Source of the DNA: Curtobacterium sp. MCLR17_032
GTDB taxonomy: Bacteria; Actinomycetota; Actinomycetes; Actinomycetales; Microbacteriaceae
Assembly: GCF_003234795.2 (NCBI RefSeq)
Contig: NZ_CP126268.1
Span: 992,001 to 1,056,000 of the forward strand
Direction of reading: 5' to 3'
DNA: 64,000 bases
Made by a program: the position numbers and the translations under genes. Below, piece after piece: positions 43,915 to 61,107 of the stretch; position 1 is the stretch's first letter; every line of letters begins with the position of its first letter. The notes beneath the pieces were generated by a model. It did not search any database. It was not told where the DNA came from and worked only from the letters and a program-made list of their open reading frames with translations.

Positions 43915-44901
43915 ATGTCGTTCGTCACCGATGCGTTCCGCACCCGTCTCCAGGCCACCTTCACCGGGAGCACCCAGGGCAGCCCGGAGTGGGTGGACGC
44001 GCTCGAGCAGGGCACCGACGCCGGCTTCTTCGGCCCCGGCTCCGCCACCTGGTCCGTGCACGGCGGCAACCAGACCATCGTCGCCGGTGTCCGCGCCCTC
44101 CTCGTCCAGGCCCTGCACCCCGGGGCGCTCGCCGGGGTCGCCGACCACTCGCGGTACAAGGAGGACCCGTTCGGACGCCTCGCGGGCACCATCCGCTGGA
44201 TCTACACCGTCACCCACGGCGACACCGCGACCGCGACCTCCGGCAGCGAGTGGGTGCTGCGGCTCCACGAACGTGTGCGCGGTCAGTACGTGGACGGCCA
44301 CGGCACCGGACGGCCCTACACCGCCAACGACCCCGACCTGGCGCGCTGGGTGCACCTCGCGTTCACAGACGCGTTCCTCCGCACCGCCCAGCGTTGGGGG
44401 GAGCCGATCCCCGGTGGCGCCGACGCCTACGTCCGCGAGTGGGCGATCGCCGGCCGCCTGATGCACGTGCACGACGCCCCGGAGACCGAGGCCGAGCTCC
44501 GCGCGCAGATGGACGGCTACCTCGACCGCGGCGAACTCGCGGTGACGCCCCGGACCCGGGAGGTCCTGCGCTTCATCAAGAACCCGCCCCTCGCTGCGAT
44601 GCTCCGACCCGGGTACCGCGCGCTCTACCAGGGCGCCGTGTCGACCCTCGACTCGAGGCACCGGGCGCTGCTCGGCATCCGAGCGCCGATGCTCGGCCCG
44701 ATCGAGCTGCCCGTGGACCGCGCGACCGGGTTGGTCCTCGACGGCATCACCGGGGTGCTCGGCAGTCAGTCGGGCAGCGAGCGTGCGGCGTTGCGGCGGA
44801 TCGAGCGGCTCGAGCGTGAGGCCGCCGAGGCGCGCGCGGCGGGTGCGGTCGGAGCGGACGACGGCGCGGGCGCTGCGGAGCGGGGTCTCGGCGCGGTCTG
44901 A
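43915..44901 (+). CDS. DUF2236 oxygenase (MpaB/rubber-oxygenase domain)
   Basis: The 328-residue protein matches the oxygenase MpaB/DUF2236 family, which includes latex-clearing protein and is thought to bind b-type haem. Visible signatures are SATWSVHGGNQTIVAGVRALLVQALHPGALAGVADHSRYKEDPFGRL, the conserved histidine in ALHPGA, and the WVHLAFTDAFL region. Substrates in this family are diverse and mostly unknown. The C-terminal end is Ala/Glu-rich. A GAGG site precedes the ATG. It is divergent from the acyl-CoA ligase, so a joint lipid role is possible but unproven. Confidence 0.85.
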   Translation: MSFVTDAFRTRLQATFTGSTQGSPEWVDALEQGTDAGFFGPGSATWSVHGGNQTIVAGVRALLVQALHPGALAGVADHSRYKEDPFGRLAGTIRWIYTVTHGDTATATSGSEWVLRLHERVRGQYVDGHGTGRPYTANDPDLARWVHLAFTDAFLRTAQRWGEPIPGGADAYVREWAIAGRLMHVHDAPETEAELRAQMDGYLDRGELAVTPRTREVLRFIKNPPLAAMLRPGYRALYQGAVSTLDSRHRALLGIRAPMLGPIELPVDRATGLVLDGITGVLGSQSGSERAALRRIERLEREAAEARAAGAVGADDGAGAAERGLGAV

Positions 44902-45058: not shown

Positions 45059-45113
45059 GAGCGGGCGAATTCGTCCCCGGTCTCCGTCGTCGCCCCGGGC
45101 ATTCCGCCCGCTC
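45059..45113 (+). repeat. 55-bp dyad element 1
   Basis: GAGCGGGCGAAT, a 30-bp core, then ATTCCGCCCGCTC. First of four units in a 660-bp gene-free stretch (44902-45561) that otherwise holds only the hexamer repeat and a terminator. Confidence 0.85.
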
Positions 45114-45168
45114 ACGCCGCAACTCAGTCCCGATCCGTCCGACTCCGACCCGACATCCCCGCTGCGTC

Positions 45169-45223
45169 GAGCGGGCGGATCTGACCGGTCCCACGCCCGG
45201 GCACCGCGGTGTTCCGCCCGCTG
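45169..45223 (+). repeat. 55-bp dyad element 2
   Basis: GAGCGGGCGGAT, a 30-bp core unlike element 1, then GTTCCGCCCGCTG. The spacer from element 1 is 55 bp. Confidence 0.85.
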
Positions 45224-45281
45224 GACCCCTGACCGGTCAGCAACGCGATCGTTCGAGGACCCCGCCGAAGCCCTCGTCAGC

Positions 45282-45336
45282 GAGCGGGCGGAAACGAGCG
45301 AGTTCCGGCGCGCTCAGCCTGGTGTTCCGCCCGCTC
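45282..45336 (+). repeat. 55-bp dyad element 3
   Basis: GAGCGGGCGGAA, a 30-bp core ending CAGCCTGGT, then GTTCCGCCCGCTC. The spacer from element 2 is 58 bp. Confidence 0.85.
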
Positions 45337-45403
45337 GCCTTCAGCGGGGCCGCGGTGCGAGGGACGGCGGCCGGTCGACGCTTGCCGCGCCGCTCTCGTC
45401 AGC

Positions 45404-45458
45404 GAGCGGGCGAATGCGTGGCCGTCTGCGCCGAGGGACCGGGGGATTCCGCCCGCTC
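45404..45458 (+). repeat. 55-bp dyad element 4
   Basis: GAGCGGGCGAAT, a 30-bp core, then ATTCCGCCCGCTC. The spacer from element 3 is 67 bp; elements 3 and 4 are both preceded by CTCGTCAGC. Confidence 0.85.
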
Positions 45459-45508: not shown

Positions 45509-45552
45509 CGGACGGGAGGCGCGGAGCCAGCTGGCACCGCGCCTCCCGTCCG
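45509..45552 (-). terminator. Terminator palindrome, GACGGGAGGC family
   Basis: Arms CGGACGGGAGGCGCGG and complement, with a central GCCAGCTGGC, lie 10 bp past the stop of the leftward aldo/keto reductase gene. Confidence 0.8.
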
Positions 45553-45561
45553 GATGGTGCG

Positions 45562-46563
45562 TCAGAAGCCGGACGGCACCCGCGGGGTGTACGCCTGCTC
45601 GAGTCGCGCGACCTCGTCGGACGTCAGCTCGATCGCCGTCGCAGCGACTGCGTCGTCGATGTGGTGCTCCTTCGTCGCGCCGATGATCGGCGCGGAGACG
45701 GCGGGCTTGCCGGCGACCCACGCGAGGGCGATCTGCGCCATGCTCGCGCCACGCGCCTCCGCGACCTGTCCGACCGCCTCGACGATCGCGCGGTTCGCAT
45801 CCTCGTCCTGGCGGTACAGCGTCTTGCCGAACTCGTCCGTGTCGGAACGGGAGCCGGAGCCCTGGGCATCCCACGGGCGTGTGACCTTGCCGCGGGCGAG
45901 CGGGCTCCACGGGATCACGCCGACGCCGGTGTGGGCGCAGAAGGGGTGCATCTCACGCTCTTCCTCCCGTTCGAGGAGGTTGTACTGGTCCTGCATCGCG
46001 ACGAACTTCGTCCAGCCGTGCCGCTCGGCGACGTGCTGCATCTCCGCGAACTGCCACGCCCACATGCTGGAGGCGCCGATGTAGCGGGCCTTGCCGGACT
46101 TGACGACGTCGTGCAGGGCCTCCATCGTCTCCTCGACCGGGGTGAGCGGGTCGAAACGGTGGATCTGGTAGAGGTCGACGTAGTCGGTACCGAGGCGCGT
46201 CAGGGAAGCGTCGATCTCGTGCATGATCGCCGCGCGGGACAGCCCGGCGCCGTTCCGGCCCGGTCGCATGCGGTTGAAGACCTTCGTGAAGACCTGGACC
46301 TCCTCGCGCGGGGCGAGTTCCTTGAGGAGTTCGCCCGTGATCTCCTCGCTGCTGCCCGCCGAGTAGACGTTCGCGGTGTCGAAGGTGGTGATGCCGGCGT
46401 CGAATGCCCGGCGGACGAAGGGGCGCGCTTCGTCGATGCCGACGCTCCAGGCGTGCGAGCCCATGGTCGGGTCGCCGTAGGACATCATGCCGAGGATGAC
46501 GCTCGAGATCTCGAGGCCGGTGTTGCCGAGGCGGACTGTCGGGACGGTGGGGGTGTCGGACAT
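45562..46563 (-). CDS. Aldo/keto reductase
   Basis: The 333-residue NADPH-dependent reductase has the catalytic tetrad D62, Y67, K94 and H135 (FDTANVYSAG, VFTKVFN, YQIHRFD), a family N terminus (VRLGNTGLEISSVILGMMSYG) and the C-terminal cofactor-binding APIIGATKEHHIDDA. It resembles the YajO/Gre-like bacterial reductases. The ATG has an AAGGA site. The physiological substrate is unknown. It is unrelated in close sequence to the second reductase at 50141. Confidence 0.92.
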   Translation of the reverse strand: MSDTPTVPTVRLGNTGLEISSVILGMMSYGDPTMGSHAWSVGIDEARPFVRRAFDAGITTFDTANVYSAGSSEEITGELLKELAPREEVQVFTKVFNRMRPGRNGAGLSRAAIMHEIDASLTRLGTDYVDLYQIHRFDPLTPVEETMEALHDVVKSGKARYIGASSMWAWQFAEMQHVAERHGWTKFVAMQDQYNLLEREEEREMHPFCAHTGVGVIPWSPLARGKVTRPWDAQGSGSRSDTDEFGKTLYRQDEDANRAIVEAVGQVAEARGASMAQIALAWVAGKPAVSAPIIGATKEHHIDDAVAATAIELTSDEVARLEQAYTPRVPSGF

Positions 46564-46738
46564 GCGGGGTCCTTCCGTGGCGGGTGGTGCGGGGTGCGGG
46601 GTGCGGGCCTTCTCGACGGGTGCGTCAGAGGGCCTTCCTGCGGGGCGGGCGTGAGCGGGCGTTCCTGCGCGGTGTTGAGCGGGTGTGTGGCGTGGGCGGG
46701 TGTGTGGGGTGCGTGAGTGGGTGTTTCTGCGGGGTGCG
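46564..46738. repeat. G-rich direct repeats in a gene gap
   Basis: The gap between the reductase start and the TIGR03086 pseudogene consists of imperfect repeats of GTGAGYGGGYG and TTCCTGCGGGG. It includes one GAGCGGGCGTTCCTGCG (46653) that resembles a single arm of the dyad family but lacks a partner 55 bp away. No gene is visible. Confidence 0.5.
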
Positions 46739-47305
46739 TCAGGCGGGGACCCGGGCATCTCGCCCGGTCACCGCGAGCAGCCGGACTTGCAGGGGAGCAT
46801 CGTCGTCCACCTGCACTGGAGCCGCGTACAGCCCGGTCGCCGCGAGGGACTGGATCTGCGGCTCGAAGTGCGTCCACACCGCATCGACGAGCTCGTCCGG
46901 CAGGTGTTCGTCGCTGCCGGTCGCGCGGGCCAGGTCCCACGTGTGGATCGTGATGTCGCTGGTCTGCTCCGCGAGGTACTCGCCAGCCTGCACCACGTCC
47001 GTCGACAGGTGCACCGGCGTGTCCTTCGGAGTGCGCTGCCACGCTTCGATGGCGGTGCTGGAGTGCCGTTGCCACTCGGCGAGGAGGTCTTCACCGATCG
47101 GTTCGAGGTCGGCTGCGGCCTGTTCGTGGTCGCTACCGGTGAGGAGCTTCGGGATTCATCGCTGCTCGTCGACCACGTGTGCGACGAGGTCGCGCGTCGT
47201 CCATTCAGAGTCCGGGGTCGGCGCGTCCCAGTCGGTCACCGCGGCGACACGGCGGCCGAACTCGGCCACGGCGAGGGTCTGCAACGTGATCCAGTCGGTG
47301 GACAT
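46739..47305 (-). pseudogene. TIGR03086 family metal-binding (DinB-like) protein with in-frame TGA
   Basis: Starting from an ATG at 47305 with an AGGAG site, the reading frame encodes MSTDWITLQTLAVAEFGRRV and runs to DLVAHVVDEQR. It then meets TGA at codon 50 (47158-47156) and continues with no other stop: IPKLLTGSDHEQAAADL to ITIHTWDLARATGSDEHLPDELV and the end at 46739. Family members have Trp at this position (DEQRW), so a TGG-to-TGA change explains the stop. The full protein would be about 188 residues, a four-helix-bundle maleylpyruvate-isomerase-like family with a metal-binding HxxxD-type site (HTWDLARA kept). Either a recent pseudogene or a base-call error. Confidence 0.8.
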
Positions 47306-47529: not shown

Positions 47530-47584
47530 GAGTGGGCGACATACCGCGGAGACGGGTGTGATCGCCCTGGTGTTCCGCCCGCTC
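47530..47584 (+). repeat. 55-bp dyad element 5
   Basis: GAGTGGGCGACA, a 30-bp core ending CGCCCTGGT, then GTTCCGCCCGCTC. Confidence 0.85.
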
Positions 47585-47672: not shown

Positions 47673-47727
47673 GAGTGGGCGACATACCGCGGAGACGGGT
47701 GTGATCGCCCTGGTGTTCCGCCCGCTC
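47673..47727 (+). repeat. 55-bp dyad element 6 (identical to element 5)
   Basis: All 55 bases match element 5, including the core. The match extends only about 5 bp to the left and 1 bp to the right before the flanks diverge. Confidence 0.9.
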
Positions 47728-49627: not shown

Positions 49628-49682
49628 GAGCGGGCGCAATCGTGGGCGAGCAGGCCTGATCGAGTCCGCTTTCCGCCCACTC
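49628..49682 (+). repeat. 55-bp dyad element 7
   Basis: GAGCGGGCGCAA, a 30-bp core, then TTTCCGCCCACTC. Confidence 0.8.
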
Positions 49683-49791: not shown

Positions 49792-49846
49792 GAGTGGGCG
49801 AGAACGTCCTCTCTGCGGCGGGTTCGCTCTGGTATTCCGCCCGCTC
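49792..49846 (+). repeat. 55-bp dyad element 8
   Basis: GAGTGGGCGAGA, a 30-bp core ending CGCTCTGGT, then ATTCCGCCCGCTC. Orphan left arms GAGTGGGCG (49751) and GAGCGGGCG (49776) lie just before it with no partner at the right distance. Confidence 0.85.
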
Positions 49847-58502: not shown

Positions 58503-58511
58503 GCTTAGACA

Positions 58512-58604
58512 CACACGGGAGTCCGCCAGAGCGGGCTGAGAGGGAGCGAACCGCGCTCCGACCGTCGAACCTGATCCGGATCATGCCGGCGCAGGGAGGA
58601 GTCA
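58512..58604 (+). promoter_or_regulatory. TPP riboswitch (THI element)
   Basis: The sequence contains the conserved ACGGGAGTCC 5' part, GGGCTGAGAGGGAGCG (CTGAGA is diagnostic), CGACCGTCGAACCTGATCCGGATCATGCCGGCG (with CTGATCnGG), and the closing GCAGGGAG. The final GGGAGGAG doubles as the ribosome-binding site of the first transporter gene. This suggests control of translation initiation by thiamine pyrophosphate sequestering the site. Confidence 0.93.
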
Positions 58605-58609
58605 TCGCG

Positions 58610-59257
58610 ATGTCCACTGGTGCACCCACCACAACGTCCACCGAACGTCCGGTCGTGAAGCGCTCGCTGCGCTGGCGGGTCGTCGACATCGTCGTCGCCG
58701 CGGTCCTCGCGGTGGCCGTCGGCGTCGTCTTCAAGCTCTGGGACGTCGCCTACGAGCCGATCGGAGCCGGGCTCGGCCTGGTGCTCCCGGGCTCGCAAGC
58801 CCTGGTCGGCGGCGTCTGGCTCCTCGCAGGGCCCCTCGTCGCCATCGTCGTGCGGAAGCCCGGCGCCGCACTCTTCGGCGAGATCGTCGCGGCCTCGGTC
58901 GAAGCGATGCTCGGCACGCAGTGGGGCTGGGGGACACTGGTCTCCGGTCTGGTGCAGGGCATCGGCGCCGAGATCGTCCTCGCGCTGTTCCTCTACCGCG
59001 TGTGGAAGCTGCCGGTGGTCATGCTCGCCGGAGCTGCGACCGGGCTCGCACTCGGGCTGAACGACGCATTCCGCTACTACGCCGGTGCGACGGCCGCGTT
59101 CCAGGTGACGTACGTCATCTGCGCGATCATCTCGGGCGTCGTCATCTCCGGTCTCGGGTCCTGGCTGCTCGTCCGCGCCCTCGCCCGCACCGGCGTGCTG
59201 TCGTCCTTCGCGGCCGGACGGGAGCACGGGCGGCGACCTCGAGCCTCCGCAGCGTGA
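58610..59257 (+). CDS. ykoE: ECF transporter S component, YkoE-like (thiamine or precursor)
   Basis: The 215-residue membrane protein has about six helices. Its pattern RVVDIVVAAVLAVAVGVVFKLWDVAY and GALFGEIVAASVEAMLGTQWGWGTLVSGLVQGIGAEIVLALF is that of the YkoE substrate-binding component, which takes up hydroxymethylpyrimidine or thiamine. It is directly under a TPP riboswitch, which supports the substrate class. It ends with a GTGA overlap into the ATPase gene. Confidence 0.9.
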   Translation: MSTGAPTTTSTERPVVKRSLRWRVVDIVVAAVLAVAVGVVFKLWDVAYEPIGAGLGLVLPGSQALVGGVWLLAGPLVAIVVRKPGAALFGEIVAASVEAMLGTQWGWGTLVSGLVQGIGAEIVLALFLYRVWKLPVVMLAGAATGLALGLNDAFRYYAGATAAFQVTYVICAIISGVVISGLGSWLLVRALARTGVLSSFAAGREHGRRPRASAA

Positions 59258-61107
59258 CGACCGTCCCCGCTCGGATCACCTTCTCCGGCTGGGGCTGGCG
59301 CTATCCCGAGCGGCGCACCTGGGCAGTCCGCGGCGTCGACCTGGTCATCGAACCCGGTGAGCGCGTCGCCGTCGTCGGGCCGTCCGGTGCCGGGAAGTCG
59401 ACGCTCCTCCGCGCCGCGGCAGGTGTCCTCGCCGATGATCCGGACGATGCGGACGACACGGCAGCAGCAGTCGAGGGGACGATCCTCGTCGACGGAGTCG
59501 CACCCGTGTCCGTCCGCGGGCGGGTCGGCCTCGTCATGCAAGATCCCGAGGCCCACACCGTGATGTCCCGGATCGGCGACGACGTGGCCTTCGGGTGCGA
59601 GAACCTGGGTGTCGAGCGCAGCGACATCTGGCTCCGGGTGCGGCATGCGCTCGACGTCGTCGGACTCGACCTGCCGCTCGACCGCTCCACCACGAGGCTG
59701 TCCGGCGGTCAGCGACAGCGGTTGGCGCTCGCGGGGGTGCTCGCGATGCGGCCGGGTGCGCTGGTGCTCGACGAGCCGTGCGCGAACCTCGACCCGAACG
59801 GTGTCGTGCAGGTGCACGACGCGGTCCGAGTCCTCCTCGACGACACCGGGGCCACGCTCCTGGTCGTCGAGCACCGCATCGGCACCTGGCTCGACCTGGT
59901 CGACCGGCTGGTGCTCCTCGAGCAAGGTGGCGGAGTCGTCGCCGACGGGGCGCCCGACGTCGTGCTCGCCGAGCACTCCGACGCGCTCGAACGTGGCGGC
60001 GTGTGGGTCCCGGGATCTGAGCCCACCCGCGGTTCGGCTCGGAGCGCGGGCCGCGACGCCCTCCGCGCTGCTGCACTCCGTGGCGCTGCCCTGCCCGACG
60101 CTGACCCCCGTGGTCCGGCCCTGCCCGGCGCTGCGCGAGCGGGCGGAACACCAGGGCTGCAGACGACTGGGGCGGGGGAGTTCCGCCCACTCGGCGTCGG
60201 CGCCGGCGTCGGCGTCGACCCAGACCCCGACGATGCTCGCCCGTCGCGAGCGGGCGGAACACCAGGACCGCCCGCCCGCGCGACCCCGGCATCTCGCCCG
60301 CTCGGCGCGGGTGAGGGCGAACGGCAGGCCCCACCCGCCCCCGGGGGAACGCTGCTGCTCCGAGCGATGGGCCTCGCGACGAGCCGGAGCGCCGGCCGGA
60401 CCGCGAAACGGCGCGGCAGGGACCGGATGCAACACATCGGACACGACATCGACCTCGAGGTCCGGAGCGGCGAGGTGCTCGCCGTCACCGGGCCGAACGG
60501 CGTGGGCAAGAGCACGCTCGGCCTCACCCTCGCGGGACTCCTCCGTCCCGCTGGCGGAACACTCGAAGCCAGCTCGGACCTCCTCGGAACGAAGGGCGCG
60601 GCTCCGACCGATCCCGCTCCGCACTCCTGGTCCAGTCGGGAGCTCGCCGCCCGCATCGGCACCGTCTTCCAAGACCCCGAACACCAGTTCATCGCCGCCT
60701 CGGTCCGCGAGGAACTGGCCGCCGGGCCCGCCGCGCTCGGGATGCCCGCCGCCGCGATCGACGAACGGGTCACGGAACTGCTCGACACCTTCCGGCTCGA
60801 CCACCTCGTGGACGCCAACCCGTTCACGCTCTCCGGTGGCGAGCAGCGGCGGCTCGCGATCGCAGCGGTCATCGCGACACGCCCGCCCGTCCTCGTCCTC
60901 GACGAACCCACTTCGGGGCAGGACCGGGCCACCTGGAGTGCCGTCGTCGAGCAGCTCGGGGCACTGGCCGACGCCGGGACAGCCGTCGTCGTGGTGACGC
61001 ACGACCGCGATCTCGTCCGAGCGCTCGACGCCGACGAGGTCGTCCTCCACGCGGACGGACTGACACCGGCCGTGCCCGGCGTCCGGTCCACCGGGGAGTC
61101 ACGGTGA
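59254..61107 (+). CDS. ykoD: ECF transporter duplicated ATPase, YkoD-like, with repeat-derived linker
   Basis: The 617-residue protein has two ABC ATPase domains. The first has Walker A GPSGAGKST at 42-50, signature LSGGQRQRLALAG, and Walker B LVLDEPCANLDP; the second has GPNGVGKST at about 413-421, LSGGEQRRLAIAAVI, and LVLDEPTSGQD. Together they power the thiamine-precursor transporter. The roughly 100-residue linker (about 265-370) is low complexity. Two copies of the dyad element are encoded within it, giving RAGGTPG near 295 and 332 and RPLG near 312 and 349. Linker length is likely tolerated between the domains. Confidence 0.92.
   Translation: MTTVPARITFSGWGWRYPERRTWAVRGVDLVIEPGERVAVVGPSGAGKSTLLRAAAGVLADDPDDADDTAAAVEGTILVDGVAPVSVRGRVGLVMQDPEAHTVMSRIGDDVAFGCENLGVERSDIWLRVRHALDVVGLDLPLDRSTTRLSGGQRQRLALAGVLAMRPGALVLDEPCANLDPNGVVQVHDAVRVLLDDTGATLLVVEHRIGTWLDLVDRLVLLEQGGGVVADGAPDVVLAEHSDALERGGVWVPGSEPTRGSARSAGRDALRAAALRGAALPDADPRGPALPGAARAGGTPGLQTTGAGEFRPLGVGAGVGVDPDPDDARPSRAGGTPGPPARATPASRPLGAGEGERQAPPAPGGTLLLRAMGLATSRSAGRTAKRRGRDRMQHIGHDIDLEVRSGEVLAVTGPNGVGKSTLGLTLAGLLRPAGGTLEASSDLLGTKGAAPTDPAPHSWSSRELAARIGTVFQDPEHQFIAASVREELAAGPAALGMPAAAIDERVTELLDTFRLDHLVDANPFTLSGGEQRRLAIAAVIATRPPVLVLDEPTSGQDRATWSAVVEQLGALADAGTAVVVVTHDRDLVRALDADEVVLHADGLTPAVPGVRSTGESR
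60137..60192 (+). repeat. Dyad element 9, in frame within ykoD (56 bp)
   Basis: GAGCGGGCGGAA, 31 bp, then GTTCCGCCCACTC. Orientation is opposite to elements 3, 5 and 6 (the extended CCTGGTGTTCC arm lies at the left as GGAACACCAGG). Confidence 0.8.
60248..60303 (+). repeat. Dyad element 10, in frame within ykoD (56 bp)
   Basis: GAGCGGGCGGAA, 31 bp, then ATCTCGCCCGCTC. It starts 111 bp after element 9, which keeps the same reading phase; both begin GAGCGGGCGGAACACCAGG. Confidence 0.8.

Follow-up and report, generated by a model that had tools for sequence, protein, structure and literature searches.

What keeps a repeated DNA element at one length when its middle is free to change? The question is raised by an array of four 55-bp units in the gap between convergent genes for an MpaB-type oxygenase and an aldo/keto reductase. 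The array lies in a 64-kb window (the whole stretch of DNA analyzed), which spans bases 992001-1056000 of a 3.71-Mb, one-contig Curtobacterium genome, G000, whose first gene is dnaA (named by eye from its translation). The four units of the original prediction were recovered at 45059, 45169, 45282 and 45404, and their coordinates confirm the proposed spacers of 55, 58 and 67 bp. These units and others of the same family, A, are listed below with the genes that adjoin or contain them.

43915..44901, plus strand: MpaB-type oxygenase gene (PF09995), left neighbor of the four-unit array
45059..45113, no strand: A unit 1, 55 bp
45169..45223, no strand: A unit 2, 55 bp; right arm ends in G for C
45282..45336, no strand: A unit 3, 55 bp
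45404..45458, no strand: A unit 4, 55 bp
45562..46563, minus strand: aldo/keto reductase gene (PF00248), right neighbor of the array, convergent
46715..46769, no strand: decayed A unit, 55 bp; three mismatches over its two 9-bp arms
47530..47584, no strand: A unit, 55 bp; identical to the unit at 47673..47727
47673..47727, no strand: A unit, 55 bp
49628..49682, no strand: A unit, 55 bp
49792..49846, no strand: A unit, 55 bp
59254..61107, plus strand: two-domain ABC ATPase gene (Pfam ABC_tran, two stretches), with units read in frame within its linker
60137..60192, no strand: A unit, 56 bp, within the linker of the ABC ATPase gene
60248..60303, no strand: A unit, 56 bp, in the same linker, 111 bp after the unit at 60137

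At the 3’ end of the reductase gene, positions 45509-45552 hold a near-perfect palindrome of 44 bp (CGGACGGGAGGCGCGG...CCGCGCCTCCCGTCCG) that looks like a bidirectional terminator. It recurs in the genus with a sharp span of its own (CGGACGGGA arms, 44 bp in 37 of 42), and two palindromes like it sit between the A units of an array at 1195 kb. The gene upstream of the reductase gene (46739-47305) is interrupted by a stop in the frame read, possibly reflecting a frame change or a wrong choice of frame; a 195-aa relative is present in L080. A TPP riboswitch at 58505-58615 lies upstream of transporter genes, including the unit-bearing ABC ATPase gene. Searching positions 40000-64000 against Rfam at gathering scores returned only a tRNA and this riboswitch, and no match to the units.

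Pairs of arms of the form GAGCGGGCG N20-50 CGCCCGCTC occurred four times in the window against an expectation of 0.01, and none of 100 shuffles reached four. Single arms with at most one mismatch numbered 21, where 3.1 were expected. Permitting spans of 43-73 bp across the whole G000 genome identified 19 arm pairs, 17 of them at 55 bp, one at 56 bp and one at 71 bp, the last enclosing a 55-bp unit with a GAGT arm; a reversed control pattern gave 0 matches. With up to two arm mismatches allowed, the stretches of G000 that were examined contained 35 A units, of which 33 measured 55 bp and two 56 bp. Among fetched loci, 381 of 400 distinct A pairs spanning 44-69 bp fell at 54-56 bp (254 at 55, 102 at 56, 25 at 54 and 19 elsewhere; one mismatch allowed over both arms, four non-Curtobacterium loci left out), a pooled histogram biased to sharpness by the many loci fetched with paired patterns, one set with spans of 53-57 bp only. 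The whole-G000 count is free of this bias.

The arms are also mostly paired. Exact GAGCGGGCGGAA 12-mers occur 39 times in G000, and 32 of the 33 that lie in arrays have a facing partner; the six outside arrays have no exact partner. In loci partly fetched by a paired pattern, 504 of 522 A arms had a partner with at most three mismatches, leaving 18 unpaired. The original prediction had held that a broad range of spacings, or arms occurring mainly alone, would make the fixed length an accident; the sharp peak at 55 bp and the near-complete pairing of in-array arms are the opposite of both. Curtobacterium chromosomes carry hundreds of units of 54-56 bp, each composed of two facing conserved ends and a free middle.

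The reductase gene, looked for in 60 genomes, served as the anchor for comparing them. In the orthologous gap of two close relatives, G018 and G048, neither of which has A units under the strict pattern, the units bear a different arm, GAGGTCGCAC, and belong to a second family, B. The span was 55 bp for 52 of the 57 B units counted as distinct, and both A and B arms begin with a pyrimidine followed by GAG (YGAG). Family B was present in 19 of the 60 genomes (18 in G018, 8 in G000), dispersed over the chromosome in both G000 and G018, and in 0 of 195 genomes from other genera of the family. Its half-sites additionally recur head to tail: an open histogram gave 41 at 32 bp, 11 at 31 bp and 9 at 64 bp, and a count confined to 30-33 bp, with the spacers listed, gave 45 at 32, 14 at 31 and 1 at 30, the spacer sequences varying. 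Inverted partners lie at 55, 87 and 119 bp; counting those at 87 or 119 bp, 119 of 126 B arms had a partner with at most three mismatches in loci that were partly pair-fetched. Averaging the flanks of 54 B units brings out the extra half-site. More B sites, with 31-bp head-to-tail half-sites and the right arm GTGACACCTC, lie outside the strict pattern at L218 2578-2980 (about 832 kb in G000). A de novo count of inverted repeats over 1.59 Mb of loci gave no further main recurrent arms beyond A, B and the 44-bp palindromes of GGGAGGC type, variants included; minor recurrent arms reached at most 8 copies.

Each unit had been described as arms of 12 and 13 bp around a 30-bp core. The constant length stood and the 30-bp core did not: conservation extends about 21 bp into each arm, in a genome-specific form, and leaves a free center closer to 11-13 bp. 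Information content is 1.3-2.0 bits per position over the outer nine bases, and the flanks of A units hold little past base -3. Units of different arrays in the same genome agree across these nine positions and to some extent across bases 10-21, and their inner boxes show a between-array identity of 0.42-0.67. The consensus half reads roughly GAGCGGGCGRAA..CC.GGG in G000, G019 and G033, GAGCGGGCGGAA.C.GC in G016 and GAGCGGGCGGAAt.cGcCcC in G030. A strict contig pattern that included the inner box gave 0 matches.

The length might instead be inherited and not selected, as would follow if a single element had long ago been duplicated in tandem and to dispersed sites and its copies had since drifted. 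Some copying of units does occur, since between-array identity of A centers exceeds the composition expectation in two genomes (0.385 versus 0.314 in G033, 0.395 versus 0.333 in G030). Tandem growth of arrays is visible too, with a period of about 114 bp in G016 and 93 bp in G019, and some cores are alike within arrays. Against duplication as the source of the fixed length, centers are near the composition expectation, with length kept, in three A genomes (observed and expected 0.349 and 0.329 in G000, 0.339 and 0.339 in G019, 0.332 and 0.323 in G016) and in both B sets (0.361 and 0.369 in G018, 0.387 and 0.377 in G000), and the second arm family shares the span. Sixteen units could be matched by their flanks between G000 and a relative (15 in G019, and in G024 the decayed unit at 46715, of equal length). 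Fifteen of these 16 kept their length (the exception being 55 versus 56 bp, and one of the matches being a chance match in a coding region), with core identities of 0.48-1.0. Five of seven spacers between flank-matched units differ, three of them greatly, probably because the matches are not adjacent in the relative. In a looser set of 17 pairs, for which equal length was required and some of which have a partner in common, agreement was 93.5% in the outer bases, 74.5% in bases 10-12, 76.1% in bases 13-21 and 66.7% in the centers. We consider inherited length a very improbable explanation, and the early proposal that selection acts on geometry, rather than on decayed copies of one element, is supported by the free centers of three of five A genomes and by the conserved lengths of flank-matched units.

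Length could alternatively be limited by folding, the units acting as stem-loops of RNA or single-stranded DNA such as bidirectional terminators or mRNA 3’ ends. Whole A units 1-4, taken as single strands, fold better than the mean of their shuffles (z of -2.4, -2.7, -4.0 and -1.4), and one B unit reached -9.2, whereas four single half-sites showed no such advantage over shuffles (z from 0.19 to 1.05). Left-right pairing at A positions 13-20 was 0.473, above the 0.394 obtained by exchanging halves among all units and no better than the 0.486 obtained by exchange within the same locus (255 A units in small per-locus sets). Position 16 illustrates this best: its paired fraction, 0.83 among A units, fell to 0.47 after general exchange and stayed at 0.84 after same-locus exchange. 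Shuffling over all units reached the observed pairing at positions 13-22 in 0 of 300 trials for A and in 13 of 300 for B, where the excess is marginal; for A, only the same-locus shuffle removed the excess, and for B the all-unit shuffle alone was applied. Because pairing is no better than same-locus exchange, each A half follows the local motif and not its partner, and A units have no compensatory base changes beyond those in same-locus shuffles. The RNA stem in the original prediction is less well supported, given the inner pairing and the head-to-tail B half-sites; the folding of whole units is consistent with it.

Gene context bears on stem-loops as well. Convergent genes flank the focal array and most B spots, and the single look-alikes in Arthrobacter are located after gene ends. 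Counting orthologous spots separately and taking gene limits from a rough codon-based caller, we placed 102 A spots in intergenic gaps (27 convergent, 57 tandem and 18 divergent) and 21 more inside genes, the latter partly caller errors. The 603 background gaps in the A and B loci comprised 160 convergent, 315 tandem and 128 divergent gaps, so A has no convergent bias; B spots divided as 28 convergent, 9 tandem and 0 divergent. A free loop, moreover, has no need of a length fixed to within one base pair, and in many relatives the terminator position of the focal gap is held by the separate 44-bp palindrome. Stem-loops as the basis of the units are, in our judgment, improbable.

A search of related genomes with the arm pattern, as originally suggested, identified A units in 50 of 60 Curtobacterium genomes, at 3 to 29 each where present, compared with 0-2 for a control pattern. 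Within these chromosomes the family is concentrated. Across 12 genomes, 130 of 162 strict A units lay within 165 kb around the reductase gene (-125 to +40 kb), about 4.5% of the chromosome, with limits chosen after the positions were seen and with the G001 positions taken by a slightly looser pattern. This zone contained 11 of 18 strict units in G000 and 10 of 18 in G019; in G030, 6 of 21 lay outside. At kilobase resolution, positions near +4, +9.5, +22 and +30 kb from the reductase gene recur in several genomes. For the A clusters of G000 at -412, -89, 0, +4, +15, +19, +24/25 and +158 kb, G019 has clusters placed comparably relative to the reductase gene, in a comparison that left out the pair 47530/47673. 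The anchor lies elsewhere in the contigs of G043 and G030, and we therefore claim no fixed distance from the origin; GC skew over sampled stretches did not locate the terminus. Every gene called at 1.037-1.060 Mb was also matched in the A-less genomes G018, G035 and G049, with G048 covered only in part, which discounts a local master gene within this interval. Nine of the ten A-less genomes, surveyed over 19-38 kb each, had no clear excess of relics (largest in G035, 6 versus 3.3 expected), in a weak test for which the window itself yields just 15 versus 7.1.

The linker of the two-domain ABC ATPase is a recurrent site inside a gene. It carries one to four A units in 6 of 10 relatives, G000 included (one of the four in G033 is weak), and its length is a multiple of 3 in all ten. 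Units are missing from the linkers of G049 and G035 (135 bp in both), G018 and Curtobacterium salicis (locus L066). As C. salicis has A units elsewhere and none in this linker, a genome can retain A with this spot vacant. Rickettsia palindromic elements are similar in being palindromic repeats read in frame within a protein gene, and differ in their size of about 150 bp, according to the review PMC10969869; in Curtobacterium we followed one recurrent gene linker, and most copies were called intergenic.

The nearest known kind of repeat is the REPIN/BIME class. REPINs, doublets of REP sequences in Pseudomonas fluorescens and other species, are inverted pairs at sharply preferred distances (PMC3116915). 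Further likenesses are two inverted short conserved ends, a less conserved spacer, over-representation of pairs and extragenic location (PMC3116915). The original prediction knew of no described family like this one; inverted pairs at preferred distances are on record, and several defining features of REPINs are lacking in the Curtobacterium units. In REPINs, conserved spacer bases pair and so lengthen the hairpin; in A units, inner pairing showed no excess over same-locus shuffles, and whole units do fold. Their tested half-sites are not palindromes and begin with YGAG instead of a GTAG/CGTC tag, their centers are near the composition expectation between arrays, and a second arm family has an equal span. 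The random extragenic spread of REPINs is not matched by A, for which about 4.5% of the chromosome, a zone delimited post hoc, contains 130 of 162 units, although B is dispersed in G000 and G018. From REP/BIME arrays and GTAG/CGTC repeats, as presented in PMC3733652, the units differ by their strict span of 54-56 bp, the lack of a tag and the lack of an internal stem in the tested halves. Searching the literature by sequence string and by word found nothing on such units, subscription papers lying largely outside the search. There is a fair chance that the repeat system is a thing of its own, apart from REPIN/BIME.

Were the units REPIN-like, they would be non-autonomous mobile palindromes replicated by a candidate transposase or HUH enzyme, with length fixed by the enzyme's need for both ends and intergenic enrichment produced by selection against harmful insertions. 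Besides the preferred distances that are a REPIN hallmark (PMC3116915), this explanation is favored by the avoidance of divergent gaps by B, the units in frame in the ABC ATPase linker and the differences in B arrays among close relatives. Of four B sites of G000 compared with G019, those at 398, 440 and 545 kb are missing and the one at 650 kb is present in altered form; the 545-kb array occupies 406 bp in G000 and 9 bp in G019. The driver named in the original prediction, a RAYT-type transposase, was not found: PF01797 (Y1_Tnp) had matches in 0 of 60 genomes, whereas the control matched in 5 of 14 reference genomes, and the RAYT/IS200 driver is thereby rejected. The four half-sites tested do not fold alone, unlike REPs, units from different arrays are mostly unrecognizable as copies, and, viewed at kilobase resolution, many of the genomes have A units in much the same places, with most units concentrated in one zone. 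We regard a REPIN-like origin as unlikely. If it were correct, such a population would exist without the RAYT thought to move REPINs. As to a MITE of a DDE transposon, which would be expected to have target-site duplications at its borders and a full-length relative with matching ends, A flanks hold little information past base -3, and few A arms (18 of 522) are unpaired.

To the reading that the units are paired protein sites we assign about an even chance. A unit would be a composite predicted binding site, in which two half-sites of about 21 bp face each other, their centers about 34 bp apart, and are bound by protomers of one candidate sequence-specific DNA-binding protein. Such a protein may need both half-sites in a fixed helical phase, which would explain why the length is kept and the center sequence is not. 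Neighboring B half-sites, at 31-32 bp, are about three helical turns apart, and family B may share this geometry and be recognized by a related protein with a different specificity. The half-site motif would drift together with the protein, which could account for the genome-specific inner boxes and for the absence of the whole set from 10 of 60 species. More speculatively, the arrays may be architectural marks of a chromosome segment, of macrodomain type, rather than mobile elements. The motif, the span, the mostly paired arms, the free center and the concentration of A in one zone are read directly in the DNA; that a protein binds the units, does so as an oligomer and has an architectural function is inferred. 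Hairpin folding of whole units, the all-unit pairing excess and tandem duplication as in functionless repeats count against paired protein sites, as do the centers above expectation in G033 and G030, the units outside a zone delimited post hoc, the fetching bias of the pooled span histogram and the vacant linker of C. salicis. No cognate protein was found among the genes adjoining the arrays; these form clusters of many kinds, some without a family name, which also speaks against a recurrent neighbor gene.

In its broadest form, paired protein sites would amount to a chromosome-marking system undescribed before. Locked 55-bp pairs of half-sites would define one 165-kb segment, the half-site code would shift jointly throughout a genome and from one lineage to the next under an unchanging geometry, and B would be a second code with the same span and up to four sites. 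We advance this version tentatively and hold it to be possible rather than probable. The matS sites bound by MatP in macrodomains are short and are not known to occur in arrays; the likeness is that a single chromosome segment holds numerous copies of a palindrome resembling a protein site. Macrodomain-type sites would be restricted to one segment; A units are concentrated (130 of 162, limits post hoc) and not exclusive. If paired protein sites are the right reading, a genus of common plant and soil bacteria possesses a repeat system in which selection holds geometry and not sequence, and close species that have the zone genes in common differ naturally in whether they carry it. Two questions would then be open to direct test: whether actinobacteria mark chromosome segments by repeated protein sites, as enterobacteria do, and how dozens of sites can change specificity together with a DNA-binding protein.

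Outside Curtobacterium, family A is sparse. Among 296 other genomes of the order, 12 had an A match, one apiece, and the control pattern had 10. Arm-pattern stretches in named genomes came from Curtobacterium in 43 of 47 cases, the others being three Arthrobacter genomes and one Streptomyces with 1-2 matches each. The Arthrobacter matches (L083, L089, L057) are palindromes of 53-58 bp, one or two per genome, with the A outer arm and a mostly AT-richer inner arm; the three examined lie at gene ends, two at apparently one purN/amylase gap (named by eye). The IMG/VR viral collection had no family B match and a single contig with A, the 28-kb L234, in which three A units lie near the end of the stretch examined and are possibly host flank of a provirus.
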